Assembly: GCF_016862395.1 (NCBI RefSeq) | Contig: NZ_BOMW01000004.1 | Coordinates: forward strand, 1-64,000 | Origin: Actinoplanes siamensis | Lineage (GTDB): Bacteria > Actinomycetota > Actinomycetes > Mycobacteriales > Micromonosporaceae | Reading direction: 5' to 3' | Length of the DNA stretch: 64,000 bases | Part shown: positions 10,346 through 55,544 of the stretch, piece after piece | Numbering within the stretch: the stretch's first letter is position 1 | Layout: each line of letters begins with the position of its first letter | Program-made: the position numbers and the translations under genes | The notes under the pieces: generated by a model | The model's database searches: none | What the model was told of the DNA's origin: nothing | Seen by the model: the letters and a program-made list of their open reading frames with translations, nothing else

Positions 10346-10581
10346 GAGGGCCAGGCTAGACGGGTGGTCCGGCGGATGCGGCCTCACGGGCCGTATCGGG
10401 TAGCCCGACGGCTGCAGATCGGCACCTGGCTAATTAGCATGCCGGAATGGTCGAGCACGAGGACATGGGGCATCCATCGCCTCAGCGGCAGGACCGTTCA
10501 GCCCGGTCCCGAAGGAGGCTGGGTGGTGCGGAAACCGCGACAGTTGAATAGGCCGGCTCACCAATTGAGAAGAAGACCGTT

Positions 10582-10935
10582 ATGGACCTGACACTAATGA
10601 TCGGCCCTGCCGACCGGGGACAGAAGTTGAGAATGGCTGAGGTGGCCCAGGATCTTGCCGCGGTCCTCGGCTTCGACTTCGGGCCATCACCCGGCACGGA
10701 GGATCTGCATGGCGGCACCGAGGTGGCACAGGCCCGGCTGCAGTGGGAGTCCGGGGACAACGAGCCGTGGAACAGCCACCCGATCTTGCTCGACTTCGCT
10801 GTTACAGAGCCTCCCGAGCTGCCGTATGCGCATGCGTTGTTCGACCGGCTCGAAAGCCTGCGCCGCTATCGGCTCGTCCTATTGGTCGATCACGCTTGTG
10901 CCCGGTCAACACACTTTCCCTGTGCCAGCTGGTGA
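10582..10935 (+). CDS. Hypothetical protein
   Basis: A 117-residue protein that I do not recognise. The first 70 residues look like real coding sequence (a beta strand, a helix AEVAQDLAAVLGFDF, then acidic turns). The C-terminal part, from a strand RLVLLVD to HFPCASW, looks shorter than expected and may be frameshifted. The codon bias at third positions is less GC-rich than in most neighbours, hinting at foreign origin. An A/G-rich stretch (GAGAAGAAGA) lies upstream of the ATG. No neighbour suggests a function. Confidence 0.45.
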   Translation: MDLTLMIGPADRGQKLRMAEVAQDLAAVLGFDFGPSPGTEDLHGGTEVAQARLQWESGDNEPWNSHPILLDFAVTEPPELPYAHALFDRLESLRRYRLVLLVDHACARSTHFPCASW

Positions 10936-11247
10936 CGAGTGAACAGGGCGAAGCGGCGGAACCTGCTGGTCCCGCCGCGCCGCCTTCCGCGCCGCGCCCC
11001 TGCGCAAGCCCGCGTCGCCGCTGACCCACGAGCCCGCGTCCCGACCACCGCCAGCCGTACCACCGCGATCCGCCTGTCAGCGACATCATGAGCGATCACA
11101 GCCATGTTCGAACCCGACGCGCCTGACCGCCGACCCGCCCCCAGCAGTGCCGGAAGTGATCGACAAGACGTGACCGGCGGGCGAAACCCGCGACAATCGA
11201 ACAGGCGTCGAGCACCCCACCGACCAGCAAACGTTGTTCAGGGCCCG
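10936..11247. other. Gap with no recognisable gene
   Basis: About 310 bases with slightly lower GC and no convincing coding frame on either strand. It contains a 24-base stretch at 11183-11206 resembling one at 10531-10553 (one insertion, three transitions). The region sits between an unrecognised gene and a truncated acetyltransferase and looks like decayed sequence. Confidence 0.5.
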
Positions 11248-11427
11248 CTATCTCGGCGGCGTCCACTGGTAGTGCGTCGAGGTGGTGATGTCGTGGAAGC
11301 CGCACCGGCGCAGGATGGGTGCGCTGGCCGGGGACGCGTCGACGTGCAGCAGCCGGAAGCCGCGAGCGACGGCTTCGCGTGCCCGACCGGCGATCATGGC
11401 GCGGTAGAGTCCGCGCCGATCCGTTCA
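11248..11427 (-). pseudogene. C-terminal remnant of a GNAT acetyltransferase
   Basis: Read on the minus strand, about 56 codons encode a GNAT end: RRGLYRAMIAGRAREAVARG (the helix after motif A), a strand LLHVDAS, then SPASAPILRRCGFHDI and a closing TSTHYQW before a TAG. These are the second half of motif A, the beta strand and the alpha-4 region of the GCN5 fold. A TGA interrupts the frame just upstream of the glycine loop, and the N-terminal half is replaced by the neighbouring hydrolase gene. It is a 5'-truncated gene. Confidence 0.7.
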
Positions 11428-11455
11428 GTGAACCGGCTGGTCCACCCGCCGGTTG

Positions 11456-12136
11456 TCACAGCGATAGAAACGGTACGACCGCGTCCAGGAACCCGGCCGG
11501 CCGTTCCTGATGTACGTAATGACCCGCGGCGATCGTGACCAGCCGGGCGTTGGGCATCCGCGCCGCCGACGCCGCCAGGAACGCCTGCCGATCGTCGCTG
11601 CTGGCGCCGTCGACGATCAACGTCGGCGTCTTGACCGCGTCGGTGCCGTCCCACCACGCCGGATCCGGATGGGTCAGCTGAGCACGGATCGCATTGACCA
11701 CCGCGAAGTCGAACGGCGTCGGCTCGTCCGGCGCCGCCAGCGGCGGCCGGTACAGATCCCCGGGCCGCGGCACGGTCGCGTCCTCCAGCACCAGTCGAGT
11801 GACCCGGTCCGGGGCCGCCTGCGCCACCAACACCGCCACGACCGCCCCCATGGAATGCCCGACCAGCGCGACGCGCTCCAGCCGCATCGCGTCCAAGAAG
11901 CCGAGCACGTCGTCGCGCATCAGCTCGAACGAGTAGTCGCCGGGTCGGCCACTGTCCCCGTGCCCACGCAGATCGAGCACGAACACCCGGAATGCGGCCG
12001 CCAGACCGTCCAACACCGGCGACCAGTCCAGTCCACTGTCACCCAGCCCGTGCAACAGCACCACGGGTTGCCCGCCGGCCTCCCCGGCCACCCGGTAACC
12101 AATGCTGACATCACCGACGTCCACCGATTCGATCAC
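11456..12136 (-). CDS. Alpha/beta hydrolase
   Basis: A 226-residue alpha/beta hydrolase. The oxyanion-hole motif LLHGLGDSGLDW is near residue 30, DLRGHGDSGRP follows, and the nucleophile elbow is VGHSMGAV around residue 95. The acid is likely in LIVDGASSDD and the histidine in AAGHYVHQERP near residue 207, so the triad appears complete. The lid is short, fitting the small esterase/haloperoxidase-like branch; the substrate is unknown. It ends only 28 bases before the truncated acetyltransferase, suggesting that the recombination junction lies here. Confidence 0.9.
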   Translation of the reverse strand: MIESVDVGDVSIGYRVAGEAGGQPVVLLHGLGDSGLDWSPVLDGLAAAFRVFVLDLRGHGDSGRPGDYSFELMRDDVLGFLDAMRLERVALVGHSMGAVVAVLVAQAAPDRVTRLVLEDATVPRPGDLYRPPLAAPDEPTPFDFAVVNAIRAQLTHPDPAWWDGTDAVKTPTLIVDGASSDDRQAFLAASAARMPNARLVTIAAGHYVHQERPAGFLDAVVPFLSL

Positions 12137-12349
12137 AAGGTCACCTTAGCGCTGGGACCCGGTCCCCGGCCTTCGCCGCTGTACCCGTTCGGCGCGCTAC
12201 GCGAAGCTTGTCGGTCGAGTTCCGCTTGCCGGAGATCCGCCGGGCCTGCACCGCCGGCGGTGACCGGATAGTCGCCGCCGCGCTTGCCCGGCGAACGGCG
12301 CGTCACCGGCCGCCGAGGCCGCCGCCGGCGCCGCCGCGAACACGTGCGG

Positions 12350-13114
12350 TCAGTCCGCCACCAGCGGTGCGGCGACCTCCTCGGCGACGATCGCGGTGAA
12401 CGCCTCTAACGCCGCCACGTCGTCGTACGGGTTCACGACATACTCCTCGGCCCAGGCGGCCGCGTTCGGGTATCCGCTGCCAGCAATGCGCTCGGCAGCG
12501 GCTTGGAGGTCGTACGCCGTTCGCCGGAGCTCGACGGTGGGACCCAGCAACGCCCAGTAGGCGCCTCGCGGGCCGTACGCCATCCCGACGCTGCCCGGAT
12601 TGACGACCCGTCGCCGATTGACCAGGCGGTCGAACGGCATGTGCGTGTGCCCGCAGATCACCGTCCGCTCGGTAACGCCGCGCAACACCTGTTCCCATCG
12701 CTGGATCGGGGAATCGACCAGGATGAACTCGTCGTCGCGGCGCGGCGTCGCATGGCAGAACAGCGTCGGCCCCAGGCCGTCGACGTCGATGCTGACGGTC
12801 ATCGGCAGATCCGCCAGCAGAGCGCGGTGCCGCTGCTCGAGCATCGGCAGGCACCCTGCCACGACTTCGGCTGCGGGGCCGGTGACGGCCTCACCGTCGA
12901 AGCCTGCGACCAGTTCCCGCTCCCCGTTGCCGTGGACCCACACCGCTTTGTCTCCCAACGAGACGAGCCGATCAAGGGTTTGCGCTGGCATCGGTCCCCC
13001 GGCGATGTCCCCCAGCAGGACGATCCGATCCACGCCGATCTGATCGACCTCGTCCAGGACAGCCTCGAGCGCCGGTAGATTTCCATGTATATCGGCAAGG
13101 ACGGCGATTCGCAT
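12350..13114 (-). CDS. Metallophosphoesterase (YfcE/ApaH-like)
   Basis: A 254-residue calcineurin-like phosphoesterase. The five metal-binding motifs are present in order: DIHGN (residues 8-12), LLGDIAGG, VHGNGERE (the GNHE equivalent), a histidine in FCHATPR, and the closing CGHTHMPFD. After this comes NPGSVGMAYGPRGAYW, the end strand of the YfcE/YvnB-type fold, and a helical tail. Such enzymes hydrolyse phosphodiesters or phosphomonoesters with Mn or Fe; the natural substrate cannot be read from sequence. The ATG at 13114 begins the fold precisely (MRIAVLADIHGN). Confidence 0.9.
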   Translation of the reverse strand: MRIAVLADIHGNLPALEAVLDEVDQIGVDRIVLLGDIAGGPMPAQTLDRLVSLGDKAVWVHGNGERELVAGFDGEAVTGPAAEVVAGCLPMLEQRHRALLADLPMTVSIDVDGLGPTLFCHATPRRDDEFILVDSPIQRWEQVLRGVTERTVICGHTHMPFDRLVNRRRVVNPGSVGMAYGPRGAYWALLGPTVELRRTAYDLQAAAERIAGSGYPNAAAWAEEYVVNPYDDVAALEAFTAIVAEEVAAPLVAD

Positions 13115-13301
13115 CCGACCATCATGGCCATGCTTCCGAGCTTTGGCAGCCCCACACCGGATGCCTACGATCACGGTGCGGGGCGTGCGCCCGGTGTGCC
13201 GCCGTCCTGCTGCCTCCCCCGAGGCTCGGGCCACCGTCCCGCCAACGCTCGACACCGGCGTGGGCCTCACGGGCGGTGGAGCACGATCTACGCTGACGGC
13301 C

Positions 13302-13697
13302 ATGATGGAGAGGCCGACGCGGCGCTGGCAAGGTAAGGTGGCGGCCCAGGCGGCGGCCGTGGCCGCCGGAGATCTGGACCCGGCTGAGGCGTACGCCGCC
13401 GAACTGTGGCCGGCGGACTTCACGGCGGCCGTCGACGCCGCCCTGGACGCGTACGAACAGGACGTCGCGGGGCTGGACCCGGCGGCGGACGAAGCGCTCT
13501 GGGCCGCCGTGGAACGAGTTGTGCTGGGGTTGAACGCCGCCGATGAGCGCCATGGCGCCATCGAGACCGGGGAGCGCGAAGAGCTCGCCGAGTACGTCGA
13601 CGCCGTGCTGACAGCCGCCGGCGTGGATGTCGCCGCCCTCGCCGCCCGGCGCGGCCTCGACCGGGCGGAGCTGACCGACTCCTGGCGTGCCTGGTGA
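13302..13697 (+). CDS. Hypothetical helical protein
   Basis: A 131-residue, all-helical, acidic, alanine-rich protein with conserved-looking aromatic residues (ELWPADF, YEQDVAGL, REELAEYVDAVL). I do not recognise a family. It resembles the small helical proteins often found as orphan genes in actinobacteria, some of which are annotated as possible immunity proteins. It diverges from the phosphoesterase gene. Two adjacent ATGs (13302 and 13305) could start it. Confidence 0.6.
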   Translation: MMERPTRRWQGKVAAQAAAVAAGDLDPAEAYAAELWPADFTAAVDAALDAYEQDVAGLDPAADEALWAAVERVVLGLNAADERHGAIETGEREELAEYVDAVLTAAGVDVAALAARRGLDRAELTDSWRAW

Positions 13698-13873
13698 TCG
13701 TGCACTTCGACGGTGGCCGAGCTGGACGGTGCGCCGGATGCCGCCGGCGGCGAGCGCCGTCCGATGCCGGGCCGTCGCGCCTTTCGATGGACGCCCTTCA
13801 CCGGTGGTCAGCACCGTAGGACTCGCGCCGCGTCCGGGTGAGGGCCGGGTGAACGCCCGGCGGCGTCGCGGGA

Positions 13874-13912: not shown

Positions 13913-15190
13913 TCACTGCAGGCGGAAGCTCTGCGCCGCGGTGCCGTTGCAGGTGTACTGGACCAGCTGGACGCCGTCGGACAGGGCGGCGGCCGGGACG
14001 TCCAGGCACTTGCCGCTGTTGCGGTTGACGAAGTGGTAGTAGCCGCCGCCCTCGGCGACCGGCTGCCACTGCTGGTTGGCGCCACCGCCGTACGTCCAGG
14101 TCTGGATCTTGGCGTTGTCGGCGGTGGAGACGTCTGTCACGTCGAGCGCCTGCGTGGCGTTGCCGCGGTTGTTGATGCGCACGTAACCGCCGCCGGTGGT
14201 GGCGAACTGGTACTGCTGTGCGGTGGAGCCGTTGCAGGCGTACTGCTGGATGGCGGTGCCGTTGACGGTTCCGGCCGACTTGGCGTCGACGCACTTGGCG
14301 CTGTTCCTGTTGACCACCGAGTACCACGTGGCCGGGTCGATGGTGTCCGTGGGCGGCGGCGTGGTGGTGCTCTGGCCGCCCAGCCACTTGATGCCCTGGA
14401 TCAGCCACTGGTTCTGCTGGGCGCTGGCGAACGTCGACGAGGTCCGGGTGTTGGTGTCGTAGTTCATGCCGTTGTGCCCGAAGTTCGCGTACAACATCCT
14501 GTAGTTCTTGTTGGTCCAGGCGATCGGGTAGAAACCGCTGCGCCACTGCTGGTTCGGGTCGGTGCCGACCGGGAAGGTGGACGGGTCGAGCGAGGCCAGG
14601 ATGTCGATGTCCGGGTTCTGCCGCAGGTCCTTGCTCCACGAGTACCACTCGCTGACCGACGACGGGATGGTGGCCGGCAGGCCGGCTGTGGACGGGTGGG
14701 TGCGGTCGTCGATCCGCAGCGTCTCGGCGGTCGGTCCCCAGGTGTTGGAGACGAAGTTGCCGGAGCCGAGGAAGGTGTTGTAGTACCAGCTCCACGCGTT
14801 CGCGTCGGTGGTGAACGCGCTCACGTGGAAGCCGAGGAAGCCGCCGCCGTTCTGCATGTACTGCTGGAACGCGGCGCGGCGTTCGGCCGGCGGCGCGTCG
14901 TCCAGGAACATGACGACCTGGACGCCGGCCAGGCCGGTGGCGCTCAGCCGGCTCCAGTCGGTGGTGGCCTCCCAGGTGAAGCCGTTCTGGGCGGCGGCCT
15001 TCGGGAACCAGTCCCGGGCCTCCTTGTCGAAGTCGATGTGCGCCGCGTCCCAGGTGCCGTTGTAGAAGGCGAGCACCTTGAAGCCGGTGGCGGCGGACGC
15101 CTCGGCGGTCCGCGCCACAAGGCCGGTGGCGACCACGGTGAGCAGGGCGATTGTCGCCACAAGGGCGGGCTTGAGCAGTTTTCGAGCCAC
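13913..15190 (-). CDS. Secreted ThuA-like protein with ricin-type lectin domain
   Basis: A 425-residue exported protein. Residues 1-35 form a Sec signal peptide. Residues 36-275 are a ThuA-like (class I amidotransferase-type) domain: KVLAFYNGTWDAAHIDF, then GVQVVMFLDD and GGGFLGFHVSAF, followed by YRMLYANFGHN. A Thr/Pro linker leads to a ricin-type beta-trefoil (about residues 295-425) with repeats ending in QQW or QSF and CxD motifs (KCVDAKS, KCLDVPA). ThuA proteins are linked to disaccharide and keto-sugar use, and the lectin should tether it to polysaccharide. The GTG at 15190 has GAGGTG nearby, and the signal peptide starts cleanly there. It is related to the ThuA gene at 31398-33080. Confidence 0.9.
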   Translation of the reverse strand: MARKLLKPALVATIALLTVVATGLVARTAEASAATGFKVLAFYNGTWDAAHIDFDKEARDWFPKAAAQNGFTWEATTDWSRLSATGLAGVQVVMFLDDAPPAERRAAFQQYMQNGGGFLGFHVSAFTTDANAWSWYYNTFLGSGNFVSNTWGPTAETLRIDDRTHPSTAGLPATIPSSVSEWYSWSKDLRQNPDIDILASLDPSTFPVGTDPNQQWRSGFYPIAWTNKNYRMLYANFGHNGMNYDTNTRTSSTFASAQQNQWLIQGIKWLGGQSTTTPPPTDTIDPATWYSVVNRNSAKCVDAKSAGTVNGTAIQQYACNGSTAQQYQFATTGGGYVRINNRGNATQALDVTDVSTADNAKIQTWTYGGGANQQWQPVAEGGGYYHFVNRNSGKCLDVPAAALSDGVQLVQYTCNGTAAQSFRLQ

Positions 15191-15370
15191 GGGGGACACC
15201 TCGGGGAGGACGGGGGCGGAGGGGCGGCGCCGCTGGCGTTCATCCTCAGGTATCGATGACCGGGCCCGCAAGGTAAACACTCTTAATAGTTAATCTGACT
15301 GCCGGAAATCGTTGCGTCGTTACACTGCCTCGACCCCCGTTCGGCAACGCGATCCCCGGAATGGCTGCAC

Positions 15371-25891: not shown

Positions 25892-27202
25892 TCAGCCCCG
25901 CGTCTCCTCGCCGCTCTGGTTGCCGTTCGCGCCCTCGCGACCGGCCGGGGTGAGCGGGTTCATCTCGGTGAAGTCCCGCGGCACCAGGTCGAAGCCCTGC
26001 CAGTGCATCGGCATCGGGCTCTGGTCCTCGTCGCGCGGCACGTGGTGGAAGCCGACCCGGACCCACATCACCGGGTCGGTCAGCTTCTCCTTGTTCTTGA
26101 CGAAGTCGACGACCGTCCTGGTGTCCAGCGGGCACTCGGGGTCGGCGGCGTTGTCGCTGGCCCACTTCTCGCACAGGTTCTTCTGGCTGAACGTGACGTC
26201 CGGCTTGGTCTCCGGGTGCCCCTCGTACTTGTCGCTCGCGCCGGGCGCCAGCTCGTAGGAGCGTGCGTGGCCGTCGGCGTTCTTGCTGGTCGGGCTGACC
26301 ACCCGCCAGAAGCGCTGGTTCACCTTGGAGAACGAGCCCTCGCTGGCGATCGTCTTGTGCGTGGTGGTCAGGGCCGCGGTCATGCTGCCCCGGCCGGTGG
26401 TCGTGGTGTCGTACTGCTCGACCTTCTCGCCGCCCTTGCCGGCGATGTTGAAGTCGACCCGCCAGAACGCGTTGTGGTAGTGCATGGTCGCGTAGTCCTT
26501 GGCCGCGCCGTTGCCGATCGGCCAGCCGTTGTCGCTGGTGGAGTACTCGCTCGGGGCCAGGTCGCCGGTGGCGCCGAGCCGGGCCGAGATCTGGCCGTCG
26601 TCGTGCAGCCGGTACTCGGTGACGTACTCGTACCAACCGAGCTTGCTGACCGTACGCAGGACCAGGTCGTGTCCCTGCTGAGAGTAGACCTTCTCGGTCG
26701 GCTCCTCGGACTCGTCGTCCCACTGGTAGTCGTGCAGCCGGTAGGCGAGGCCGCGCGGCTCGGCGCTGACGCAGAGCACGTCGCGCTGCTGCGGGTCGCT
26801 GCCGCCGTCGGAGCCGACCCGGATCGAGCCGCCCTTGCAGTCGTCGCCGGTCAGCGTCTCCAGGCCGTAGCCGCCGAGCCCGATCGCCGTGAGGTCGTCG
26901 TACTCGGTGTCGCCGTTGTCGTACGGCACGTTGAGCTGCGCCATCCGGATCGAGTCGAGCACCTGCACCGGCTCGGGATAGCGCTTCGTGGCGACGTAGA
27001 CGTGGTCCAGCACCAGACCGGCCTTGTCGTTGATGCGCCAGCACAACTGCCAGGTCGTACCGTTGGGCAGCGTCTCCTTGACCATCGCCGAGGCGCCGCA
27101 GGGCGTGGCCTCCGGGGCGGCCTGGGCGGCGGCGGGCACGGTCAGGCTCAGCGCGGCCGACGTCAGCAGGGCGACGGCTCCGGCGGTCTTTCGGTACCTC
27201 AT
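25892..27202 (-). CDS. Secreted copper amine oxidase catalytic-domain protein
   Basis: A 436-residue exported protein with a signal peptide ending AQA (about residue 29). By eye it aligns to the beta-sandwich catalytic domain of copper amine oxidases. Copper ligands fit H241 and H243 (MHYHNAFW) and H386/H387 (GFHHVPRDED), and the closing MPMHWQGFDLVPRDF matches the family. The cofactor tyrosine fits Y191 in GWYEYV, where the usual asparagine before it is tryptophan. The stretch matching FDxGEYG is IGLGGYG, so the catalytic base aspartate is glycine (G108). The N-terminal domains are encoded by the gene 17 bases upstream. It may be an inactive relative or a non-oxidase. Confidence 0.75.
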   Translation of the reverse strand: MRYRKTAGAVALLTSAALSLTVPAAAQAAPEATPCGASAMVKETLPNGTTWQLCWRINDKAGLVLDHVYVATKRYPEPVQVLDSIRMAQLNVPYDNGDTEYDDLTAIGLGGYGLETLTGDDCKGGSIRVGSDGGSDPQQRDVLCVSAEPRGLAYRLHDYQWDDESEEPTEKVYSQQGHDLVLRTVSKLGWYEYVTEYRLHDDGQISARLGATGDLAPSEYSTSDNGWPIGNGAAKDYATMHYHNAFWRVDFNIAGKGGEKVEQYDTTTTGRGSMTAALTTTHKTIASEGSFSKVNQRFWRVVSPTSKNADGHARSYELAPGASDKYEGHPETKPDVTFSQKNLCEKWASDNAADPECPLDTRTVVDFVKNKEKLTDPVMWVRVGFHHVPRDEDQSPMPMHWQGFDLVPRDFTEMNPLTPAGREGANGNQSGEETRG

Positions 27203-27219
27203 GCTGCTGGGTTCTCCGC

Positions 27220-27954
27220 TCACTTGAGGCGGGCGACCTGGCGCCCGGACAGATCGACGACGATGTCTGTGACGTTGATGAAGTGACCGTCGGCGGTCTT
27301 CACGATCAGCTGGACGCAGCGGCTCTTGCCGCACTGGGTGGCGCCCCGGTCGGCGGGCTTGGACGTGTAGATGTGCGCGGTGGGGACGAGTCCCGCCGTA
27401 CCGCTGAGGTCCTGTCCGGTCGCCTTGCGGTAGGCCGCCTTGAAGTCCGCGCCCAGCGGGTCGGCGACCAGCAGGTCGAGGGCGGCCTTGGCCTCCTGCG
27501 CGGACGCCGGCGGCTGCATGCCGGCGGCCGAGAACGACTTGGCCAGCTTGCCCGTGGTCAGGTCGACGACCTGCTTGAACAGCTTCTCGCTGGCGTAGTC
27601 GTAGTAGTACAGCTCCGCCTGCCGGCCGGTGCCGTCGGCGTCCAACTCGGCGGCCAGGTACTCCGGGCCCGGCTTGCCGTTCACGTCCTTGGCGCCCGCG
27701 GCCAGTTCCGGGGTGAGCGCGGCCGCGCGGGCGCGGTCCACCTCGGTGCCGGTCAGCGGGTCGCTGCCGGTTCCGCTGGCGGGCTCGGGGACGGGGCTCG
27801 GGTGCGAGACCCGCGGCTGCTCGGCCGCCACGCCGGGCGCCGGCGGCGGCGTGCCCGGCGCGGCGTTCGCCTGCCACGACGCCAGCCCGAAGGCGCTCAC
27901 CGCGCTGACTGTCGCGATGCCGAGGCCCCAGCCCCATTTTCGAAAACGATCCAC
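27220..27954 (-). CDS. Secreted N-terminal (N2/N3-like) part of a copper amine oxidase
   Basis: A 244-residue exported protein: signal peptide to about residue 31, a Pro-rich linker, then two small alpha/beta domains. SDPLTGTEVDRARAAAL resembles the N2 start (HPLDPLT-type) of amine oxidases. VVDLTTGKL, followed by GMQPPASAQEAKAAL and VADP, matches the N3 pattern VVDLxxG...QPP...DP. It ends with a strand IVVDLSGRQVARLK. In normal amine oxidases these domains precede the catalytic domain in one chain; here they form a separate gene 17 bases upstream of it. GTG 27954 follows GGGAGGA. The two products probably associate outside the membrane. Confidence 0.75.
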   Translation of the reverse strand: MDRFRKWGWGLGIATVSAVSAFGLASWQANAAPGTPPPAPGVAAEQPRVSHPSPVPEPASGTGSDPLTGTEVDRARAAALTPELAAGAKDVNGKPGPEYLAAELDADGTGRQAELYYYDYASEKLFKQVVDLTTGKLAKSFSAAGMQPPASAQEAKAALDLLVADPLGADFKAAYRKATGQDLSGTAGLVPTAHIYTSKPADRGATQCGKSRCVQLIVKTADGHFINVTDIVVDLSGRQVARLK

Positions 27955-28318
27955 TGTCGGCGTTCCTCCCCGTCGCTTGGGCAGTGCGCCGTGAACGATC
28001 GCGACAGGCGGGTGAAATCCATGTGAGCCGCATCGGCCCGGCCGGCGCCGCCACTCCCCGTGACAGTCCAATGTGCCTGCTCAGCTCACGGATCGGTGAC
28101 GAACGGCGGAAACAAATATTTCATCGCCAGTTCTCCGTTCGCCGACCCCTGGAAGGAAGCGGGCTCCCGGAAGGAAGCGGACGGGGCAGCCCTGACCGGG
28201 CGGCGGCACCCGCCATGGCGTCGCGCCGGCCGGGCCGGACGCTGTCCGGTGAGCACCCGCCGTCGCCGTCGGGGCCGGGGGAAGGCGAACGCGGGGCGGA
28301 TGCCGCGCGCTCAGGGGC
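27955..28318. other. Intergenic region, promoter of the amine oxidase operon
   Basis: About 360 bases without a gene. It has an AT-rich patch (AACAAATATTT, 28110-28120) and inverted arms CGAACGG (28100-28106) and CCGTTCG (28135-28141) around it, which could be an operator or a terminator for the membrane-protein gene ending at 28319. The 12-mer GGAAGGAAGCGG occurs twice near 28151 and 28170. Confidence 0.45.
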
Positions 28319-31397: not shown

Positions 31398-33080
31398 TCA
31401 GGCCGGTGGCGTCCAGAGTTGGTTGGCGGCGGCCAGGCAGTCCCAGATGTGGATCTGCTGGCCGTCGTCGGGCTTGACCTCGGAGACGTCCAGGCACCGC
31501 CCGGACTGCGGGTTGCGGACCGTCCGGTCGCTCTGGACGACCCAGTTCTGCGCGGCGCTGCCGTTGCACGTGTACAGCTGCACCTTCGTGCCGTTGGCGG
31601 TGGCGCCGCCGGCCACGTCCAGGCACTTGCCCGACTGCGGGTTGCGCCAGACCTGCCCGGTGATCGCCCACGTCTGCGCGCCCGAGCCGTTGCACGTCCA
31701 GAGCTGGATCTTCGTGCCGTCGGCGGTCCCGCCGTTGTCGACGTCCAGGCACTTGTTCGCGAACCCGCGGACCGGGCCGGTGCCGCCGGTGGAGCCGCCG
31801 AGCTCCTTGATCCGGATGTCGCGGAACGACACGTGGTCGGCGTCGCCGTGGTTCTGGATGCCGATGTGGCCGGCCAGCGACCGTACCGGATCGGGGTTGG
31901 TGAAGTCGTTGATCCTCACCCCGTTCAGGAAGATTTGCAGATGCTCGCCCTCGACCCGGATCTCGTAGGCGTTCCACTCCCCCGGCGGGTTCAGCGCGGC
32001 GTCCCGGGCCGCCGCGTCGGCGCCCTGGAACGTGTAGACGCTGCCGGTGGTGCGGTCGGGCGTGTCCGTCGCGTCGATCTGGATCTCGTAGCCGTTGTTC
32101 ACCGCGGACCACGGGTCGGTGGAGGGCGGGAAACCGATGAAGACGCCGGAGTTGTCGTCGCCTGCCAGTTTCCAGTCGAGCTTCAGCGAATAGTTGACGA
32201 ACTGCTTCGCCGAATACCAGTAGAGGCCCATGCCGCCGTACGACGAAAGGGTGTTGTCGGCGCTGGTGAAACCTCCCGGACCGGCCTGCGACCAGCCGGT
32301 GCTCAGCGGGGTGTAGCCGGCCTCCGGGCGGCAGTCGGCGTGCGACCGGCCGGCCGCGTAACGGATGCCGCCGAGCAGGTGGGCCCGGAAGGCGGGATCG
32401 GTGTACGACTCGACGGTGTGCCCGCCACCGGTGTAGAACGACCGGCCCGCGCTGAGCGTCTTGCACCACGCGTGCGGGTGGTCCGCGCCCATCCCGCCGC
32501 CGGAGTAGGAGCTCTCGTCGAGGGTGGCCAGCACGTGCGCCGTGTCGCGCGGATTGGTGCGGTAGTTGTACCACTCGTCGGTACGCGGCCAGGTCTGCGG
32601 CAGGTGCGCGGTGGCCGCCTGCGCGCGGTCTTCGACCTTGACGTTCGCCTGCTGGATCGCCGGGTGCGAGGCGAACCAGGCGCCGACCAGGTCGCCGTAG
32701 AACGGCCAGTCGTACTCGGTGTCGGCGGCGGCGTGCACCCCGAGGTAGCCGCCACCGGCGCGGATGTACGACTCGAACGCCGTCTGCTGGGTGGCGTCGA
32801 GCACGTCGCCCGTGGTGTTCAGGAACACCACGGCCTCGTACCGGGAAAGGTTCGTGGGGTTGAAGTCGGCGGCGTTCTCGGTGGCGGTGACCGTGAAGCT
32901 GTTGGCGGCGCCGAGCTCCCGGACGGCCTGGATGCCGGCCGCGATCGAGTCGTGCCGGAAGCCCGCGGTCTTCGAGAAGACGAGTACGTCGTAGGGGGCG
33001 TCGGCGGCCGCGGCCGCGGGCGCGGGCGCGGGGAGGAAGGCCGTGGCCAGCACCGCGCCGAGCAGGATTCTTCTGATCAT
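31398..33080 (-). CDS. Secreted ThuA domain / 3-keto-disaccharide hydrolase (DUF1080) / ricin-lectin fusion
   Basis: A 560-residue exported protein with four parts: signal peptide (1-25); a ThuA domain (about 27-255; VLVFSKTAGFRHDSI, then GGGYLGVHAAADTEYDW and a GGMGADHPHAW stretch); a DUF1080/3-keto-disaccharide-hydrolase domain (about 257-430; NSGVFIGFP, GYEIQIDATD, WNAYEIRVEG, GHIGIQNHGD); and a ricin-type trefoil (430-560). DUF1080 domains hydrolyse 3-keto-glycosides in other bacteria. The ATG overlaps the stop of the upstream PQQ dehydrogenase gene by four bases, so the two are translated together. The lectin domain is nearly identical in DNA to that of the neighbour. Confidence 0.9.
   Translation of the reverse strand: MIRRILLGAVLATAFLPAPAPAAAAADAPYDVLVFSKTAGFRHDSIAAGIQAVRELGAANSFTVTATENAADFNPTNLSRYEAVVFLNTTGDVLDATQQTAFESYIRAGGGYLGVHAAADTEYDWPFYGDLVGAWFASHPAIQQANVKVEDRAQAATAHLPQTWPRTDEWYNYRTNPRDTAHVLATLDESSYSGGGMGADHPHAWCKTLSAGRSFYTGGGHTVESYTDPAFRAHLLGGIRYAAGRSHADCRPEAGYTPLSTGWSQAGPGGFTSADNTLSSYGGMGLYWYSAKQFVNYSLKLDWKLAGDDNSGVFIGFPPSTDPWSAVNNGYEIQIDATDTPDRTTGSVYTFQGADAAARDAALNPPGEWNAYEIRVEGEHLQIFLNGVRINDFTNPDPVRSLAGHIGIQNHGDADHVSFRDIRIKELGGSTGGTGPVRGFANKCLDVDNGGTADGTKIQLWTCNGSGAQTWAITGQVWRNPQSGKCLDVAGGATANGTKVQLYTCNGSAAQNWVVQSDRTVRNPQSGRCLDVSEVKPDDGQQIHIWDCLAAANQLWTPPA
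31411..31792. repeat. Near-identical 382-bp lectin-domain repeat, copy A
   Basis: This stretch encodes the ricin-type lectin of the ThuA fusion gene and matches 33087-33468 in the same orientation with one difference seen (31458 C versus 33134 T). The match stops abruptly on both sides, at GTCCAGAG and after GCCGGTGG. Confidence 0.95.
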
Positions 33081-35857
33081 GGCAACGTCCAGAGTTGGTT
33101 GGCGGCGGCCAGGCAGTCCCAGATGTGGATCTGTTGGCCGTCGTCGGGCTTGACCTCGGAGACGTCCAGGCACCGCCCGGACTGCGGGTTGCGGACCGTC
33201 CGGTCGCTCTGGACGACCCAGTTCTGCGCGGCGCTGCCGTTGCACGTGTACAGCTGCACCTTCGTGCCGTTGGCGGTGGCGCCGCCGGCCACGTCCAGGC
33301 ACTTGCCCGACTGCGGGTTGCGCCAGACCTGCCCGGTGATCGCCCACGTCTGCGCGCCCGAGCCGTTGCACGTCCAGAGCTGGATCTTCGTGCCGTCGGC
33401 GGTCCCGCCGTTGTCGACGTCCAGGCACTTGTTCGCGAACCCGCGGACCGGGCCGGTGCCGCCGGTGGTGAACGTGAACGCGTCCACGTCGAACAGCGCC
33501 CCGGCGCCGCCGGAGAACGTCAGGTACAGCGTGGTGGTGCCGGCCGGCGGGTTGGTGATCGGGGTGCTGACGTCGGTGAACACGTTCCACGCTCCGGTCA
33601 CCGGCACGGTCGCCGAGCCGAGCACGGTCCCCGTCGCCGAGCCGGCGCGGACCTGCAGGGTGCCGCCGGCCCCGCCGGAGGAGACCCGGGCGCTGAAGGT
33701 CTTGGCGTTCGCCAGGTGGTACGTGTCGAACGCGATCCAGTCGCCGTTGTCGATGTTGCCGACCGTCCTGCCGCCCTCAGCCTCCGGCTTGTCGATGGCG
33801 GTGACGCCGGCCGAGGTCCGGAAGTGCTCGGCCTGCCGGTGCCGCGGCTGCAGGATGTGCTGCTCGTGGGTGACCAGGCCGCCGTTGTCGGCGTACTCGG
33901 CGTCGAAGATCGGGAAGATGTTCGCCGCCGCGTCGTGCTCGCCGTCGACCGGGATGGTGATCGTGCCGGTGCAGCCGTTCGCCGAGGTGATCTGATGCCC
34001 GTGCTGGTCGTGTCCCAGCACGTAGGTCATCTTCGCCCGCGCGCAGGTGACCGTCCCGTCCTCCGGGTCGCTGATGCTCAGGCGGTACGGCACGGTGTCG
34101 CCGAAGCTGACCAGCTGGCCGTCGACCGGTGCGTCGATGGTGACCGCCGGCGCGGTGTTGCCGACCCCGACCTGCACGCCGCCGGTGCCGGTGGCGCCCT
34201 GCGGGTCGGTCACGGTGAGCGTGACGTTGTAGGTTCCGTTGCTGGTGTACGTGTGCGCCGGGTTCGCGGCGGCCGACGTGCCGCCGTCACCGAAGTTCCA
34301 CGCGTAGGTGAGCGCGCCGCCCTCCGGGTCGGAGGAGCCGGCCGAGGAGAAGTTCACTGTCAGCGGGGCCTGCCCGGACGTCCGGTCGGCCGAGGCGACG
34401 GCGGTCGGCGCCTTGTTGCCGCCGCCCACGTAGTCGTACCGGTAGAGCGCCGAGTTGGCGTCGCCGTTGAAGTACCCGGTGCCGTAGTCGAGCACGTAGA
34501 GGGCGCCGTCCGGGCCGAACGCCAGGTCCATGACCTGCTTGCCGTTCCACGCGAAGTTCGCGATCTCGTTGATCGACCCGTCGGCGTTCAGGTGGATCGG
34601 CTTGATCCAGCCCCGGCCGAACTCGGCGGCGAAGAAGTGACCGTCCAGATCCTGCGGGAACTTGGTGGCCGACGGGTTGGCGGCGTTGTAGCGGTAGACC
34701 GGGCCGGCCATCGGCGATTCCGAGCCGCCGGCGCCGAACTCCGGCGGGGTGCCGGCCTCACCGCCGTACCGGATCCAGGCGGCCTTGGCCGGCGGCAGCT
34801 TGCTCAGCCCGGTGTTGCGCGGAGAGTTGTTGACCGGCCCGCCGGCACAGTCGAACCTGGCGCCGGTCGTGCCGGTCGCGAAGTCGAAGTCGGCGTACGT
34901 CTCGGCGGTGGTGTTGGTGCCGGTGCAGTACGGCCAGCCGAAGTTGCCCGGCCCGGTGATCCGGTCGAACTCGACCTGGCCGCCCGGTCCCCGCGCGGAG
35001 GCGGCGCCCGCGTCGGGGCCGTAGTCGCCCACGTAGACGACGCCGGTCGCCTTGTCCACGCTGAGCCGGAACGGGTTGCGGAAGCCCATCGCGTAGATCT
35101 CCGCCCGGGTCCCGGCGGTGCCCGGCGCGAACAGGTTGCCGGCCGGCACCGAGTACGACCCGTCCGCGTTCACCTTGATCCGCAGGATCTTCCCGCGCAG
35201 GTCGTTGGTGTTGCCGGCGGTGCGCTGCGCGTCGAAGGCGGGGTTCCGGTCGGCCCGCTCGTCCAGCGGCGAGTATCCGTCGGACTGGAACGGGTTGCTG
35301 TCGTCCCCGGTGGAAAGGTAGAGGTTGCCCGCCGCGTCGAAGTCGATGTCACCGCCGACGTGGCAGCAGATGCCGCGGGAGGCGGGCACGTCCAGGATGG
35401 TCTTCTCGGCGCTGAGCTTCCAGTCCGCGGTCAGCGTGAACCGGGACAGCCGGTTGACGCCCTGCCAGGCGGAGAAGTCGGTGCCGGTGTCGGGCGAGTC
35501 GCCGGCCGGGGTGCTCAGCGGCGGCGCGTAGTAGAGGTAGATGAACCGGTTGCCGGCGAAACCCGGATCGACGCCGACCCCCTGCAGTCCTTCCTCGTCG
35601 TGGTTGTACACCGGGAGCGTGCCCACCACGGTGGTGAATCCGGCGGCGTCGGTACGGCGCAGCGTGCCGTTGCGGGCGGTGTGCAGCACCGACCGGTCCG
35701 GAAGCACCGCGAGGCTCATCGGCTCGCCCACCTCCGGTTCCCCTTTGGCGAGCGTCACCTGCTGGAAGTTGCTGGGATCGATGTCGTGCGCGGTGGCCGG
35801 GGCGGGCGCCACGAGGAGTGCGGCGGCCAGGAGAGCCGCGAAGGCGGCAGCTCGCAT
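33077..35857 (-). CDS. Secreted PQQ-dependent sugar dehydrogenase with PKD, CBM6-like and ricin-lectin domains
   Basis: A 926-residue exported protein: signal peptide (1-24); glucose/sorbosone-dehydrogenase-type beta propeller (about 28-470; GVGVDPGFAGNRFIYLYY, CCHVGGDIDFDAAGNLYLS, EIYAMGFRNPFRLSVD, GPDGALYVLDYGTGYF); a PKD domain (about 478-565; VDGxx type, YAWNFGDGGTS); a further beta domain; a CBM6-like module (about 672-795; NGDWIAFDTYHL, DVDAFTF); and a ricin trefoil (797-926). It should oxidise sugars using PQQ outside the cell. No PQQ synthesis genes are in the window. The stop overlaps the ThuA-hydrolase start by four bases. GAAGGGA precedes the ATG. Confidence 0.9.
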   Translation of the reverse strand: MRAAAFAALLAAALLVAPAPATAHDIDPSNFQQVTLAKGEPEVGEPMSLAVLPDRSVLHTARNGTLRRTDAAGFTTVVGTLPVYNHDEEGLQGVGVDPGFAGNRFIYLYYAPPLSTPAGDSPDTGTDFSAWQGVNRLSRFTLTADWKLSAEKTILDVPASRGICCHVGGDIDFDAAGNLYLSTGDDSNPFQSDGYSPLDERADRNPAFDAQRTAGNTNDLRGKILRIKVNADGSYSVPAGNLFAPGTAGTRAEIYAMGFRNPFRLSVDKATGVVYVGDYGPDAGAASARGPGGQVEFDRITGPGNFGWPYCTGTNTTAETYADFDFATGTTGARFDCAGGPVNNSPRNTGLSKLPPAKAAWIRYGGEAGTPPEFGAGGSESPMAGPVYRYNAANPSATKFPQDLDGHFFAAEFGRGWIKPIHLNADGSINEIANFAWNGKQVMDLAFGPDGALYVLDYGTGYFNGDANSALYRYDYVGGGNKAPTAVASADRTSGQAPLTVNFSSAGSSDPEGGALTYAWNFGDGGTSAAANPAHTYTSNGTYNVTLTVTDPQGATGTGGVQVGVGNTAPAVTIDAPVDGQLVSFGDTVPYRLSISDPEDGTVTCARAKMTYVLGHDQHGHQITSANGCTGTITIPVDGEHDAAANIFPIFDAEYADNGGLVTHEQHILQPRHRQAEHFRTSAGVTAIDKPEAEGGRTVGNIDNGDWIAFDTYHLANAKTFSARVSSGGAGGTLQVRAGSATGTVLGSATVPVTGAWNVFTDVSTPITNPPAGTTTLYLTFSGGAGALFDVDAFTFTTGGTGPVRGFANKCLDVDNGGTADGTKIQLWTCNGSGAQTWAITGQVWRNPQSGKCLDVAGGATANGTKVQLYTCNGSAAQNWVVQSDRTVRNPQSGRCLDVSEVKPDDGQQIHIWDCLAAANQLWTLP
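33087..33468. repeat. Near-identical 382-bp lectin-domain repeat, copy B
   Basis: Second copy of the ricin-lectin segment, at the 3' end of the PQQ dehydrogenase gene. It is 381/382 identical by eye to 31411-31792 and 1,676 bases away in direct orientation. Confidence 0.95.
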
Positions 35858-36031: not shown

Positions 36032-36057
36032 AACTTTTGTCACAACCAGCAAAAGTT
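36032..36057. promoter_or_regulatory. Inverted repeat AACTTTTG / CAAAAGTT
   Basis: Perfect 8-bp arms (36032-36039 and 36050-36057) separated by 10 bases. A half-site-like AAAAGTT occurs again at 35987-35993, closer to the PQQ dehydrogenase gene. Candidate operator for a sugar-responsive regulator; the regulator is unknown. Confidence 0.45.
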
Positions 36058-36384: not shown

Positions 36385-37674
36385 CTAGCTCACCGCGCAG
36401 GCCGCGCCGTTGAGCGTGAACGACGTGGGCTTCGCGGCGTTTCCGGTATGGGTCGCCTGGAAGCCGATGGAGACCGAGCCGTTCGGGGCGATGACCGCGT
36501 TGTAGGCGGCGTTGCGCGCCGTCACCTGTCCGGACGGCGCGGAGTAGGTGGCGCTCCACCCGGACGTGATGGTCTGCCCGGCCGGCAGGGTGAAAACCAG
36601 GGACCAGCCGTCGATGCTCCCGGCGCCACTGTTGACGATGGTGATCGTCGAGGTGAGGCCGTTGTTCCAGGCGTTGACGGTGTCGGTGACCCGGCACGCC
36701 CCGGTGACCGGAGGCGACGACGACGGCGGGACCGACGGCTCGGCGGTGATCCCGAAGAAGGCGATGGCCGCGGCGGCCATGCCGCTGGAGGGCAGGGTGT
36801 GCCCGGCGCCCTGGACGCTGTACGCCTCGACCTGGACGGCGCCCGTGGCGTCGGCGTACCGGCGGCGGTTCCAGCCGGGCTGCGGGGTGTCGCTGGACGT
36901 GGGCGTCTGGCTGAGCCCGAACACGTTGGTCCACTGCTCGATGGACTCCTGGAGCAGCTGGTACGGCACCAGCGTGTCGGCGGTGCCGTGCCAGAGCTGC
37001 ACCCGCGGGCGTGGACCGCTGTAGCCGGGGACGACCCGGCGGACCGCGTCGCCCCACTGCTGCGGCGTACGGTTCATCGCACCGCCGGTGCACCGGCTCG
37101 TGCCGGGCGGATAGTCGGCGGCGCCGGCGAAGCAGTCGAACGGCACGCCCATGAAGGCCGCTCCCGCCTTGAACAGGTCGGGGTAGAGCGCGAGCAGGTG
37201 CTGGGTCATCATGCCGCCGGACGAGCTGCCGGTGGCGTACACCCGGTTCAGGTCGCCGCCGTACTGCCGCCCGGCGTAGGAGACCATCGACGCGATGGAG
37301 ACCGGGTCGCTGCCGCCGTCGCGTGTCTTCGCGGCCGTCGACCAGGTGTCGAAGCACCTGCCGAAGCCGGCCTCCTGCATCGCGGACGGGTAGATCACGA
37401 TGAACCCGTACCGGTCGGCGAGCGAGGCGAACTCGCTGCCGGAGTAGAAGCCGGGACCGGAGCCGCCGCAGCCGTGCATGGCCACCACGATCGGCGGGCT
37501 GGCCGGGCGGACGTCCGGCACGTAGACGTGCATGCGCATGCCGCCGGGGTTGCTGCCGAACGCGGTGACCTCGGTCAACGAGGCCGCGAACGCCGGTCGT
37601 GCCGCCGGGACGGCCAACCCGGCCACGGCCAGCGCGCCGGCCACGGCCAGCAGCACCTTCCGTCTGATCTTCAT
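36385..37674 (-). CDS. Secreted PHB-depolymerase/CE1-type esterase with CBM2
   Basis: A 429-residue exported protein. The signal peptide (1-30) ends AFA. The esterase domain (about 31-315) belongs to the PHB depolymerase/feruloyl-acetylxylan esterase group: VVAMHGCGGSGPGF (oxyanion loop), ATGSSSGGMMTQHL with the serine near residue 151, HGTADTLVPY (acid), and QGAGHTLPSSG (histidine). After a Ser/Pro linker (PSSSPPV) a CBM2 domain (about 330-429) with WNNGLTSTITIVNSG and NGAACAVS binds cellulose or xylan. It probably removes acetyl or feruloyl groups from plant wall polymers. A good GAGGAG precedes the ATG. Confidence 0.9.
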   Translation of the reverse strand: MKIRRKVLLAVAGALAVAGLAVPAARPAFAASLTEVTAFGSNPGGMRMHVYVPDVRPASPPIVVAMHGCGGSGPGFYSGSEFASLADRYGFIVIYPSAMQEAGFGRCFDTWSTAAKTRDGGSDPVSIASMVSYAGRQYGGDLNRVYATGSSSGGMMTQHLLALYPDLFKAGAAFMGVPFDCFAGAADYPPGTSRCTGGAMNRTPQQWGDAVRRVVPGYSGPRPRVQLWHGTADTLVPYQLLQESIEQWTNVFGLSQTPTSSDTPQPGWNRRRYADATGAVQVEAYSVQGAGHTLPSSGMAAAAIAFFGITAEPSVPPSSSPPVTGACRVTDTVNAWNNGLTSTITIVNSGAGSIDGWSLVFTLPAGQTITSGWSATYSAPSGQVTARNAAYNAVIAPNGSVSIGFQATHTGNAAKPTSFTLNGAACAVS

Positions 37675-52322: not shown

Positions 52323-55300
52323 TCAGCGGGCCTCCGCCGCGTACAGCGAACCGATCTCCTCGTCGGTCAGCGCCCGGCCGAAGGCATGGACCTGATCGAC
52401 GGCGCCGGACCAGTAGTCGGTCCGGTTGCCGGCATACTTGGCCCGGCCGACCGACAGCGGCCCGGTGCTGACCACGCCCGGCCCGGCCGTCGTGGTCGCG
52501 ACCCGCTTGCCGTCCACGAACAGCCGGATCTCGCCGGTGGCGTGGTCACGGACACCCACCAGGTGGTACCACCGGTTCAGATCGGGGGTGACGGCCAGCC
52601 GGGCCCGGTTGCCGCCCGGCGTGCTGAACGCGAACGCGCCCTGCCCGTACTGCAGGTAGAACGGGTTCTCCACCCGGCGGCCGTCCTGGCTGACCGCTGT
52701 GGCGTAGTTGCCCGGCAGCTTGTCCAGGGTGACCCAGGCCGCGATCGTGTAGTCCTTCGTGGTGTCGACGACCGGCGCGGCGGTGTCCGCGTAGTCCCCG
52801 TCGCCGTCGAAGCGCAGCGCGGAGCCGGTCACCCCGGGCGTCCACGCGGTGTTCCCGGTCAGCGTCAGGTCGCTGCCGCCACCACTGTCCTTCGCCACCG
52901 TGCCGGCGCCCTCGTCCAGGCTCCAGTCGCCGTGACCCGGGAAGTCCGCGGGCGAGGTGGGATTCGCGCCGGCCGCGATGACCTTGCGGTTGACCGCCCG
53001 TACCGCCGCGGGGTCGACCTTGATCTCCCGCCGGTCGTACGTCCACAGGCCGTTCAGCTCGGTCTCCAGGTCGGTGATCTGGGTGTAGACCGAACCGGAC
53101 AGCTCCGCGCCGGCAGCCTCCAGGTAGAACCGCTCGGTGTTGTCGACGTACTTGGCGGTGAGCGCGGCCTTGTCCGCGACGCCGCTGTAGATCACCGCGG
53201 GCGTGCCCGGCCACATGTGCCCGGGAGTGCGCAGGGTGAACCCGCCGTGCTCGCCGTCCATGGCGATCCGGGTCGCGTCCGGGTAGGCCGGGTCGGTGTT
53301 GTTGTAGTCGTGATGGTCGATGACGTCACCCTTGCCGGAGTCCCCCTTGGAGGCGCAGCAGTTGACGCCGCTGTGCGCGTTCACGATCCGGGACGGGTCG
53401 GCGGCCTTGACCTGCTCGGTGATCTGGCCGGTCGCGGTGCGGTCCCACTCGCCCCAGCCCTCGTTGAACACCACCCAGCCGATCACCGACGGGCTGTCGT
53501 GCAACTGGTCCATCATCTCCCGGCCCTGGTTGTACCAGGCCTGCTGCCCGGCCGTGCCGGTGATGTCGGCGGACACGAAGTCCTGCCAGACCAGCAGGCC
53601 GAGCTCGTCGGCGTGCCGGTACCAGCGGGCCGGTTCCACCTTGATGTGCTTGCGGACCGCGTTGAAGCCGAGCTTCTTCGTCTCCACCAGGTCGAACCTG
53701 AGCGCGGAGTCACTCGGCGCGGTGTAGAGACCGTCCGGGAAGAAGCCCTGATCCAGGGTGGCCAGGGAGAAGATCGGTTTTCCGTTCAGGACCAGCTTCG
53801 GGAAACCACCGACATCGCGTACGGCGACCGACCGCATCCCGAAGTAGCTGCCCACCGAGTCCCGGCCGAGTGTCACGTCCAGGTCGTACAGGTAGGGGTC
53901 GTCCGGGGTCCACAGATGCGGCCTGGCGATGGGCAGGCTCAGCTGCGTCCCCACGCCCCCGGACACCGTGCCCACCTTGCGGCCGGTGGAGTCCCGGGCC
54001 ACCGCGGTGACCCTGGCGCCGGCCTTCGCGGACGCCGACGTGACGGTCACCTTCAGCGAGCTGGTCGCCAGGTCCGGCGTGGTGACGACGGCGTCGATCC
54101 CGGCGTCGGCGACCGGCTCCAGCCAGACCGTCTGCCAGATGCCCGACGACGGGGTGTAGACGATGCCGCCCGGGTTCAGCGACTGCTTGCCCTTCGGCTG
54201 GTCCGGCCCGGTCACGTCGGTGACCTCGACCAGGATCTCCTGCTGTCCACGACCGCGCAGCGCGTCCGTGATGTCCGCGGTGAACGCGGTGTAGCCGCCG
54301 GTGTGCTCGGTGACCAGGGTCCCGTTGACGTACACCTCGGCCTGGTAGTCCACGGCGCCGAAGTTGAGCTTGAGCCGCTGGCCGGAACCGATCCTCCAGC
54401 TCTTCGGCACGGTGACGAGCTTGCGGTAGAACATGTGCGACTCGCGGCGCTCGATGCCGGACAGCTGCGACTCGACCGGGAACGGCACGATGATCTGCTC
54501 GCCCAGCTTCCTGCCGAACACCGGCTGCTCGGCCGCGGTGGCGCCGGCGAACTCCCACGGGCCGTTCAGGTTCAGCCAGTCGTCGCGGACCAGCTGCGGG
54601 CGCGGATACTCCGGCAGCGGGTGCCGCTCGTCGAGCTTGTCGGCCCACGGGGTGGTCAGCCGGTGGCTGGAGCGGTTCGTCGCGGAGCGGACGATCTGTG
54701 GAACGGTCTCCCCGCCGACGGCCAGGCCGCCGTTGCCGTCGTAGCTGATCCGCACCTTCTGACCGGCCTGGATGGGCTGGGCGAGGGTGACGGTCAGCTT
54801 CGTGCCGCTCCTGGTGACCGACGAGACCGGCATCGGCGTGGTGTCGGCCTCGACGACCAGGTGCGCGGTGGTCTGGGCGACCGCGGTGACCGGCGCGTCG
54901 AAGGTCGCGGCCACCTTGCGGCCGTCCGCGCCGACCTCGAAGGACACCGGGAACACCGGGAAGTCGTCCGGCGGGGTGAAAGCGCTCTCCGGGACGATCT
55001 GCCTCGCGAGCCCGGCGGCCGACCAGCGCAGGAACAGGTTCGCGCCGCCCACGTCCTGGAACATCTCGACGCGCACGTCGTGGCTCTCGCCGGCGACCAG
55101 GTGCACCGGCGCGCTGGTCTGCTCCACGTCCCAGTCACCGACCCAGTGGTCGATCACCGGCTTCTCGTCCAGAGAGAACCGGAACCCGTTGTCGCCGATC
55201 ATCGAGAACGTGTAGTCCCCGGTCGCCGGGGCGGTGAGCTTGCCGGTCCAGCGGGCGGTGGTGTGCTCGGTGCGTCCGAGGAACGACTGGAAGCTGCCGG

Positions 55301-55544
55301 TCAGATCGGACAGGTCGATGTTCGGGTCCAGCGAGACGCCGCCCAGCTGGGCGAAGTCGCGGGCGCCCGGGGCGGACATCCGGAAGTACTCACCCTTGAG
55401 GCCGTGCACGGTGACGGCGGCCTGTGCGCCAGCCCGCGCGGCCCGCGCCTCGGACGGCGCCGCCTGTGCCGCGGCCGGCACGACGAGGAGGGACAGGACC
55501 AACAGGACGGCCAGGAGCGGTGCTCTCCACGGCGATCGTGGCAT
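52323..55544 (-). CDS. Secreted GH2 glycosidase with PA14 and LamG domains
   Basis: A 1,073-residue exported protein: signal peptide (1-29, ending AQA); PA14 domain (about 45-190; [27 protein letters not shown]); a beta domain; GH2 sugar-binding domain (about 310-480; [38 protein letters not shown]); an Ig-like domain; the TIM barrel (about 585-850) with the acid/base glutamate in [10 protein letters not shown] near residue 696 and the nucleophile probably in MDGEHGGF near 762; and a C-terminal LamG-like domain (about 890-1070). GH2 enzymes are beta-galactosidases, mannosidases or glucuronidases; the specificity is not readable. PA14 and LamG should bind glycan. Confidence 0.9.

Follow-up and report, generated by a model that had tools for sequence, protein, structure and literature searches.

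A 64,000-nucleotide stretch of the Actinoplanes siamensis genome (contig NZ_BOMW01000004.1, positions 1 to 64,000; hereafter the window) contains two overlapping genes, A and B, that may encode the extracellular part of a two-compartment system that degrades glycosides non-hydrolytically and feeds a linked keto-sugar pathway. This reading is given a probability of about 0.5. Soil actinomycetes secrete this matched glycan-binding pair, in some cases as one fused chain, and it probably detaches sugars from glycans through an oxidation-elimination route and not through ordinary hydrolysis. Gene A encodes a propeller of the glucose/sorbosone dehydrogenase (GSDH) family and gene B a protein with ThuA and DUF1080 domains. 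Directly seen are the architecture of the pair, its conservation, its fusion into one chain, its matched lectin tags, the gene linkage in Streptomycetaceae, and a palindrome shared with an intracellular operon. The ORFs (open reading frames) and Pfam matches confirmed the coordinates, the 4-base ATGA overlap and the domains that an earlier note on this DNA had assigned to the two minus-strand genes. These features are the following.

33077..35857, minus strand: gene A (P0002, 926 amino acids), with signal sequence, GSDH six-bladed propeller, PKD, CBM6 and ricin lectin domains (Pfam, fold)
34433..35725, minus strand: GSDH-like propeller, residues about 45-475 of gene A (alignment, fold)
34184..34417, minus strand: PKD domain of gene A (Pfam)
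33467..33835, minus strand: CBM6 of gene A (Pfam)
33089..33454, minus strand: ricin-type lectin tag of gene A (Pfam), with a near-identical copy at 31413-31778
31398..33080, minus strand: gene B (P0001, 560 amino acids), with signal sequence, ThuA, DUF1080 (3keto-disac_hyd) and ricin lectin domains (Pfam)
32355..32987, minus strand: ThuA domain of gene B (Pfam, fold)
31806..32300, minus strand: DUF1080 / 3-keto-disaccharide hydrolase family domain of gene B (Pfam; fold matches 9fbe, 8rr2, 8v31, 8tda and 3osd)
31413..31778, minus strand: ricin-type lectin tag of gene B (Pfam)
31410..31790, minus strand: 381-base repeat, the homogenised lectin tags, with one mismatch to 33086-33466 (sequence comparison)
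36032..36057, no strand assigned: operator-like palindrome AACTTTTG-N10-CAAAAGTT, 174 bases upstream of the gene A start

The signal sequences of P0002 and P0001 are signal-like N-termini recognised by direct reading, without a predictor. Pfam matches over cut-off cover residues 45-320 (GSDH), 481-558 (PKD), 675-797 (CBM6) and 802-923 (ricin) of P0002, and residues 32-242 (ThuA), 261-425 (3keto-disac_hyd) and 435-556 (ricin) of P0001. The ricin-type lectin matches (PF00652) of the two tags score 95.7 and 96.5 bits, versus a cut-off of 29. The propeller of P0002 has the six-bladed GSDH fold of sGDH and Asd (PF07995).

The pairing is conserved well beyond this strain. P0001 was searched (E<=1e-40) in 100 genomes, namely the own genome, 59 others of the genus and 40 from other families, and matches occurred in 52 of them; 49 of these fall among the 60 genomes of the genus (own included), some through one domain only. 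Among 40 fetched regions, 34 held separate adjacent pairs and two a single fused ORF (L066 and L081); L071 ended at the contig end, L084 carried DUF1080 without ThuA, and no GSDH gene was found upstream of the P0001 homologue in L072 and L082, where about 6 kb was looked at. With the window included, 26 of the 35 separate pairs overlap by 4 bases, one overlaps by 1 base and eight are arranged otherwise. A scan with the propeller alignment yielded at least 584 confirmed stretches, the best 80 of which were kept as named actinomycete loci, from Micromonospora, Actinoplanes, Catellatospora, Dactylosporangium, Nonomuraea, Streptomyces and other genera. Forty of these 80 loci encode a pair with ThuA-DUF1080 and 21 a GSDH-ThuA-DUF1080 fusion in one polypeptide; furthermore, five pairs were scored as ThuA only (in one of them, L166, ThuA is split across two frames, the second of which carries DUF1080), one fusion has no DUF1080, one is ThuA-first, four have ThuA upstream, and three reach a contig end. 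ThuA-first fusions with GSDH were also present in L085-L093, selected for long open frames in the P0001 search; seven of these nine were checked as single ORFs. That GSDH and ThuA are fused in either order argues strongly for a joint function. The recurrence of coupled pairs in other genomes, proposed in the earlier note as a check, exceeds chance in the genus and extends to the named loci, and the note's suggestion that the two proteins act together is supported by the conserved overlap, the one-chain fusions and the matched tags. In L084, which belongs to another family of the order, an 1851-amino-acid protein (5096-10648) combines PA14, DUF7133, CBM35, DUF1080 and SLH domains; it is possibly a surface-anchored relative.

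The C-terminal tags agree in 39 of the 40 pairs (ricin/ricin in 22, none/none in 14, an extra CBM6 on both proteins in three), the lone mismatch being ricin/none, and ricin occurs on one of the 22 fused forms. Similarly, the genus set of 35 pairs comprised 34 ricin/ricin pairs and one with no tag on either protein. In a tag tree of 112 domains from 56 pairs (the fused L066 being left out), mean identity was 85.0% within a pair, versus 62.4% (A-A), 63.4% (B-B) and 62.3% (A-B) between loci. The nearest domain by identity was the operon partner in 49 of 112 cases, the same position of another locus in 55 and the other position in eight; of the 40 cherries, 25 unite the two copies from a single operon, making them sisters in 25 of the 56 pairs, and 15 unite domains at matching positions in different loci; and position labels change 38 times, versus a mean of 37.1 in shuffles, all of these being counts of non-independent events, as the loci are related to one another. 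The within-pair identity, the cherries and the shuffle-like label changes indicate that the ricin tags are repeatedly homogenised within the operon. That both proteins are held on the same glycan, as had been suggested, is plausible given the matching of the tags and their near-absence from the fusions.

The DUF1080 domain of gene B (PF06439) is identified by both a profile match over cut-off and its fold. Its fold matches are solved proteins titled 3-keto-glycoside eliminase/hydratase, and the titles of solved relatives name complexes with 3-keto-glucose and 2-hydroxy-3-keto-glucal. The A2 positions Asn284, Glu306, Gln308, Trp343, Asn344 and Asn384 are invariant (28/28); the numbering in P0001 is that of A2 plus 26, Glu306 corresponding to Glu332. 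Bond cleavage may proceed by elimination instead of direct hydrolysis. The ThuA domain (PF06283) is likewise identified by profile match and fold.

The intracellular half of the system may be encoded by genes that recur beside the core. Neighbours were surveyed at 98 loci (37 of the genus, window included, and 61 named); the counts are lower bounds because the ORF filter was crude and the flanks differed in length. A PF01261 TIM barrel was found at at least 31 loci, an RbsA-type ATPase at at least 26, a Gfo/Idh/MocA protein at at least 21, a ROK gene at at least 15 (three divergent), an RbsC-type gene at at least 15, and RbsB-type and Ino1-like genes at at least 13 each. RbsA and RbsC were named from reading the translations, whereas TIM barrel, Gfo, RbsB, ROK, Ino1 and the phosphodiesterase mentioned below come from Pfam. 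The typical order in Streptomycetaceae is ROK, ATP-binding cassette (ABC) transporter, Gfo, TIM barrel and core, often followed by Ino1. The nearest solved relatives of the TIM barrel are 2zds (SCO6571; 1.6e-179) and the 2-hydroxy-3-keto-glucal hydratase 8ro4 (phmmer 9.9e-44, 153.6 bits, with a query from L078). For the Gfo protein they are 4h3v (3.7e-166) and, among levoglucosan dehydrogenases, the entries 6a3f-6a3j (9.5e-92), 6A3I being named in PMC10066097. The levoglucosan route consists of oxidation, elimination, hydration and reduction (PMC7676230). On a different contig of the own genome (C24), unlinked to genes A and B, counterparts of the TIM barrel (80% identity) and Gfo (65%) genes stand together with ROK, RbsA, RbsC and RbsB genes:

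L182 (C24:49000-66000), 6915-13778: ROK-RbsA-RbsC-RbsB-Gfo/Idh/MocA-TIM barrel operon (Pfam for ROK, RbsB, Gfo and TIM barrel)

The Ino1-like gene (myo-inositol-1-phosphate synthase family) lies directly 3' of the core in the loci counted above, for example in Streptomyces L124, L141 and L157. In L050-L052, L077-L080 and L121, the core is preceded by genes for a PF01663 phosphodiesterase and another small PF01261 protein. A recurrent opposite-strand 'gene' at 19 loci was dropped, as it reads as a shadow of the permease gene.

The two proposed halves share the palindrome in A. siamensis, as AACTTTTG-N10-CAAAAGTT also precedes the ROK gene of the C24 operon. In the 8.2-Mb draft genome, the exact pattern ACTTTYG-N10-CRAAAGT occurs in two places only, before gene A and before that operon, and the reversed pattern in none. 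Across the 100 genomes searched, 48 contain the pattern (69 sites) and one the reversed control. Thirty of the 69 sites were viewed, 23 of which lie just before a ROK gene 80-96% identical to the own one, two before a GSDH gene and five near neither, two of these five in other families. With up to two mismatches, the site lies upstream of gene A in 29 of 37 genus stretches, versus 0 of 115 reversed upstream stretches; a random-window control gave 24 of 1150, although these windows may include true sites. Together with the DUF1080 fold matches and the linked keto-sugar-like genes, the shared palindrome supports keto-sugar metabolism as the field in which the earlier note had placed the pair. 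A wider regulon was looked for and rejected: allowing three mismatches added one site (C16:82065), the reversed control giving three, which is chance level. A 3-mismatch palindrome, also at chance level, lies about 1 kb upstream of a propeller gene in L040. A gene for a polyhydroxybutyrate-depolymerase-type esterase with CBM2 (window 36385-37671, minus strand) is situated on the strand of the pair, upstream of the palindrome.

In the proposed mechanism, the GSDH-type propeller of gene A would oxidise a hydroxyl group of a glycan-bound sugar outside the cell, most likely at C3, after which elimination by the DUF1080 domain of gene B would break the activated glycosidic bond, followed or not by re-hydration, possibly with assistance from ThuA. 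CBM6 and the near-identical ricin tags would keep both proteins on the same glycan, a task that fusion into one chain would take over in other lineages. The freed keto-sugar or keto-glycal could be imported via the RbsABC-type transporter, hydrated by the TIM-barrel enzyme and then reduced by the Gfo/Idh/MocA oxidoreductase. Both halves are probably under the control of a ROK regulator, whose gene belongs to the intracellular operon and which would act via the palindrome. Every enzymatic step, the C3 regiochemistry, the cofactor, the direction of the Gfo reaction, the binding of the regulator and the substrate are what we infer. If this holds true, proteins now annotated as glucose/sorbosone dehydrogenase, ThuA or DUF1080 would form one oxidative-elimination system, which could open linkages closed to classical glycosidases. 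A major share of plant and microbial glycan breakdown falls to actinomycetes, whose secreted enzymes are mostly read as hydrolases and lytic polysaccharide monooxygenases. The palindrome provides a handle on inducer and substrate, and the single-chain Streptomyces form makes the question directly testable.

Several observations weigh against this mechanism, some of them concerning the propeller and the cofactor pyrroloquinoline quinone (PQQ). Alignment to sGDH showed that the propeller of gene A keeps the equivalents of His144, Arg228 and Asn229, which are present in 136 of 137 relatives, with one gap. The equivalents of Lys377, Arg406 and Arg408 are absent from gene A itself; among the 136 readable relatives (137 aligned, one gap), those of Arg408 and Lys377 are missing in all and that of Arg406 in 134. 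The Arg408 position is occupied by Met (130) or Ile (6), the Arg406 position by Gln (116), Lys (6), Asn (6), His (3), Ala (3) or Arg (2), and the Lys377 position by Gly in 116 and by Lys in none. Characterised enzymes with the GSDH fold are known to oxidise C1. Lys377 forms an ion pair with PQQ and Arg408 lies beside PQQ-binding arginines (PMC6881789); Lys377 alone is not decisive, since the PQQ-binding AA12 domain also lacks it (PMC6881789). The own genome encodes no PqqE over cut-off and no PqqC at E<=0.001, and both are absent in 26 of the 28 same-genus genomes with a P0001 homologue (own included); PqqE over cut-off and PqqC at E<=0.001 occur together in four of 36 same-genus genomes (own included), one of these having PqqC over cut-off. 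PQQ synthesis by the host was a supporting criterion and not a defining one. The earlier note's reading of gene A as a PQQ dehydrogenase is not supported, as known PQQ-site residues are missing and the host lacks pqqC and pqqE; for the same reasons, PQQ dependence read from the family name is doubtful. As to the regulation, 12 of the 78 named loci outside the genus, all of them Micromonosporaceae and none Streptomyces, carry the site (up to two mismatches) in front of gene A. Genomes G004, G032 and G036 have the ROK gene and its palindrome but yielded no P0001 homologue, indicating an operon independent of the pair. In addition, no ThuA was found near the propeller gene in five of the 80 loci, one DUF1080 protein has been reported as an endo-xanthanase (PMC10881899), and the Gfo protein scores below the levoglucosan dehydrogenase equivalog cut-off (NF052479; 354 versus 650 bits).

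Three other explanations accommodate part of these data. The propeller may be an ordinary PQQ-dependent sugar dehydrogenase that uses scavenged PQQ and forms lactones from reducing ends by C1 oxidation, ThuA/DUF1080 acting elsewhere and being merely co-secreted. The host does encode three canonical GSDH relatives, so that scavenging of PQQ is conceivable. However, these three keep an R-L-R motif in the Arg406/Arg408 region, read by eye from the translations as a scripted kept-length alignment misplaced their C-terminal motif, whereas the ThuA-linked propellers lack it, with an Arg406 equivalent left in two of 136, and also lack Lys377, and repeated fusion with ThuA-DUF1080 argues against independent roles, making this explanation improbable. 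An equally unlikely one is that the propeller is a non-redox binding scaffold like hedgehog-interacting protein and DUF1080 a plain endo-glycanase; the near-universal retention of the catalytic His equivalent (136/137, one gap), the keto-sugar titles of solved DUF1080 relatives and the linked keto-sugar-like genes speak against it.

Alternatively, oxidation may be intracellular, with Gfo/Idh/MocA acting first as in levoglucosan use, and the secreted pair would only free a small glycoside or anhydrosugar for import. The closeness of the Gfo protein to a C3-oxidising levoglucosan dehydrogenase favours this, as does the presence of the ROK gene and its site in some genomes without a P0001 homologue. 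It would nevertheless leave the secreted DUF1080 domain without a keto substrate, its solved relatives acting on keto-sugars by title, and is considered to have little chance of being correct. Oxidation and elimination outside the cell is the preferred reading. In a more specific and more tentative form, somewhat less probable than the general one, the ThuA-linked propellers would be a separate extracellular glycoside oxidase family, probably acting at C3, whose cofactor site is altered or of another kind. Together with DUF1080 they would make up a secreted glycosidase working by oxidation and elimination, which many Streptomyces carry as a single chain, and the resulting keto-sugar would enter the cell through an operon governed by the same ROK switch.

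Parts of this system resemble known ones. In the Caulobacter LacABC and DUF1080 lactose route, the oxidant is also extracytoplasmic, cleavage of the keto-glycoside is likewise assigned, as a proposal, to a DUF1080 protein acting outside the cytoplasm, and genes for a transporter, an epimerase and a reductase are linked (PMC9007349). That oxidant is a membrane-bound dehydrogenase, whereas here a secreted propeller with CBM6/ricin tags would take its place and ThuA is added. The known extracytoplasmic 3-dehydrogenase has a LacC-type subunit, PF13618, which had no match in the own genome, the Caulobacter control being positive and the search being confined to this oxidant. The levoglucosan pathway (LgdA-LgdB1-LgdB2-LgdC) shares Gfo/Idh/MocA and PF01261 proteins, an ABC importer and, among reported neighbours, ROK regulators (PMC7676230, PMC10066097), but the accessible parts of these papers describe no secreted enzymes, whereas the operon described here is tied to a secreted pair through its position or the palindrome. 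The Agrobacterium O-glycoside eliminase route also involves elimination of a 3-keto-glycoside to 2-hydroxy-3-keto-glycal, with a putative hydratase and a Gfo oxidoreductase among the expressed proteins, although its eliminase is a TIM barrel and not DUF1080, and no tag-bearing secreted pair appears in the accessible part of the paper (PMC10628242). Unlike the BT2157-type DUF1080 proteins (3osd, 8tda, 8rr2, 9fbe), the DUF1080 domain of gene B shares its chain with ThuA and a lectin and is coupled to a propeller. The PQQ sugar dehydrogenases Asd and sGDH (3a9g, 3das, 1c9u) share the six-bladed fold, the active-site His and the Arg-Asn with gene A, which lacks their last-blade basic residues. The system is set apart from known non-hydrolytic keto-glycoside pathways by its secreted propeller of doubtful PQQ dependence, its ThuA partner, its matched tags or fusion, and its shared palindrome. 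No report of a coupled GSDH-ThuA-DUF1080 set was found among the matches listed in searches of an open-access collection, subscription papers being outside the search.

Further propellers deserve mention. The one in L040 (contig C16, about 1362 onward) is a second member of the same clade in the own genome and also lacks the Arg406/Arg408 motif. The 'glucose/sorbosone dehydrogenase' C9Z5L1 (SCAB_42951) of S. scabiei is among the most abundant proteins secreted with suberin (PMC4098958, PMC4567563), its CAZy column reading NF (PMC4567563); it is a possible member of the ThuA-linked clade. A 'soluble quinoprotein' of S. lividans is mentioned in PMC6833217.

The third ThuA-lectin protein to which the earlier note had linked the pair does exist (window 13913-15280, minus strand, from the first GTG), but its tie to the system was dropped for lack of evidence: it is a distant paralogue, with 29% identity across the ThuA part, and has no DUF1080 match in a Pfam scan. 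Its gene adjoins one for a metallophosphoesterase. Elsewhere in the window, the minus strand encodes a protein with a copper amine oxidase domain (25892-28054) and a 1073-amino-acid protein with PA14, GH2-type and LamG-like domains (52323-55544).
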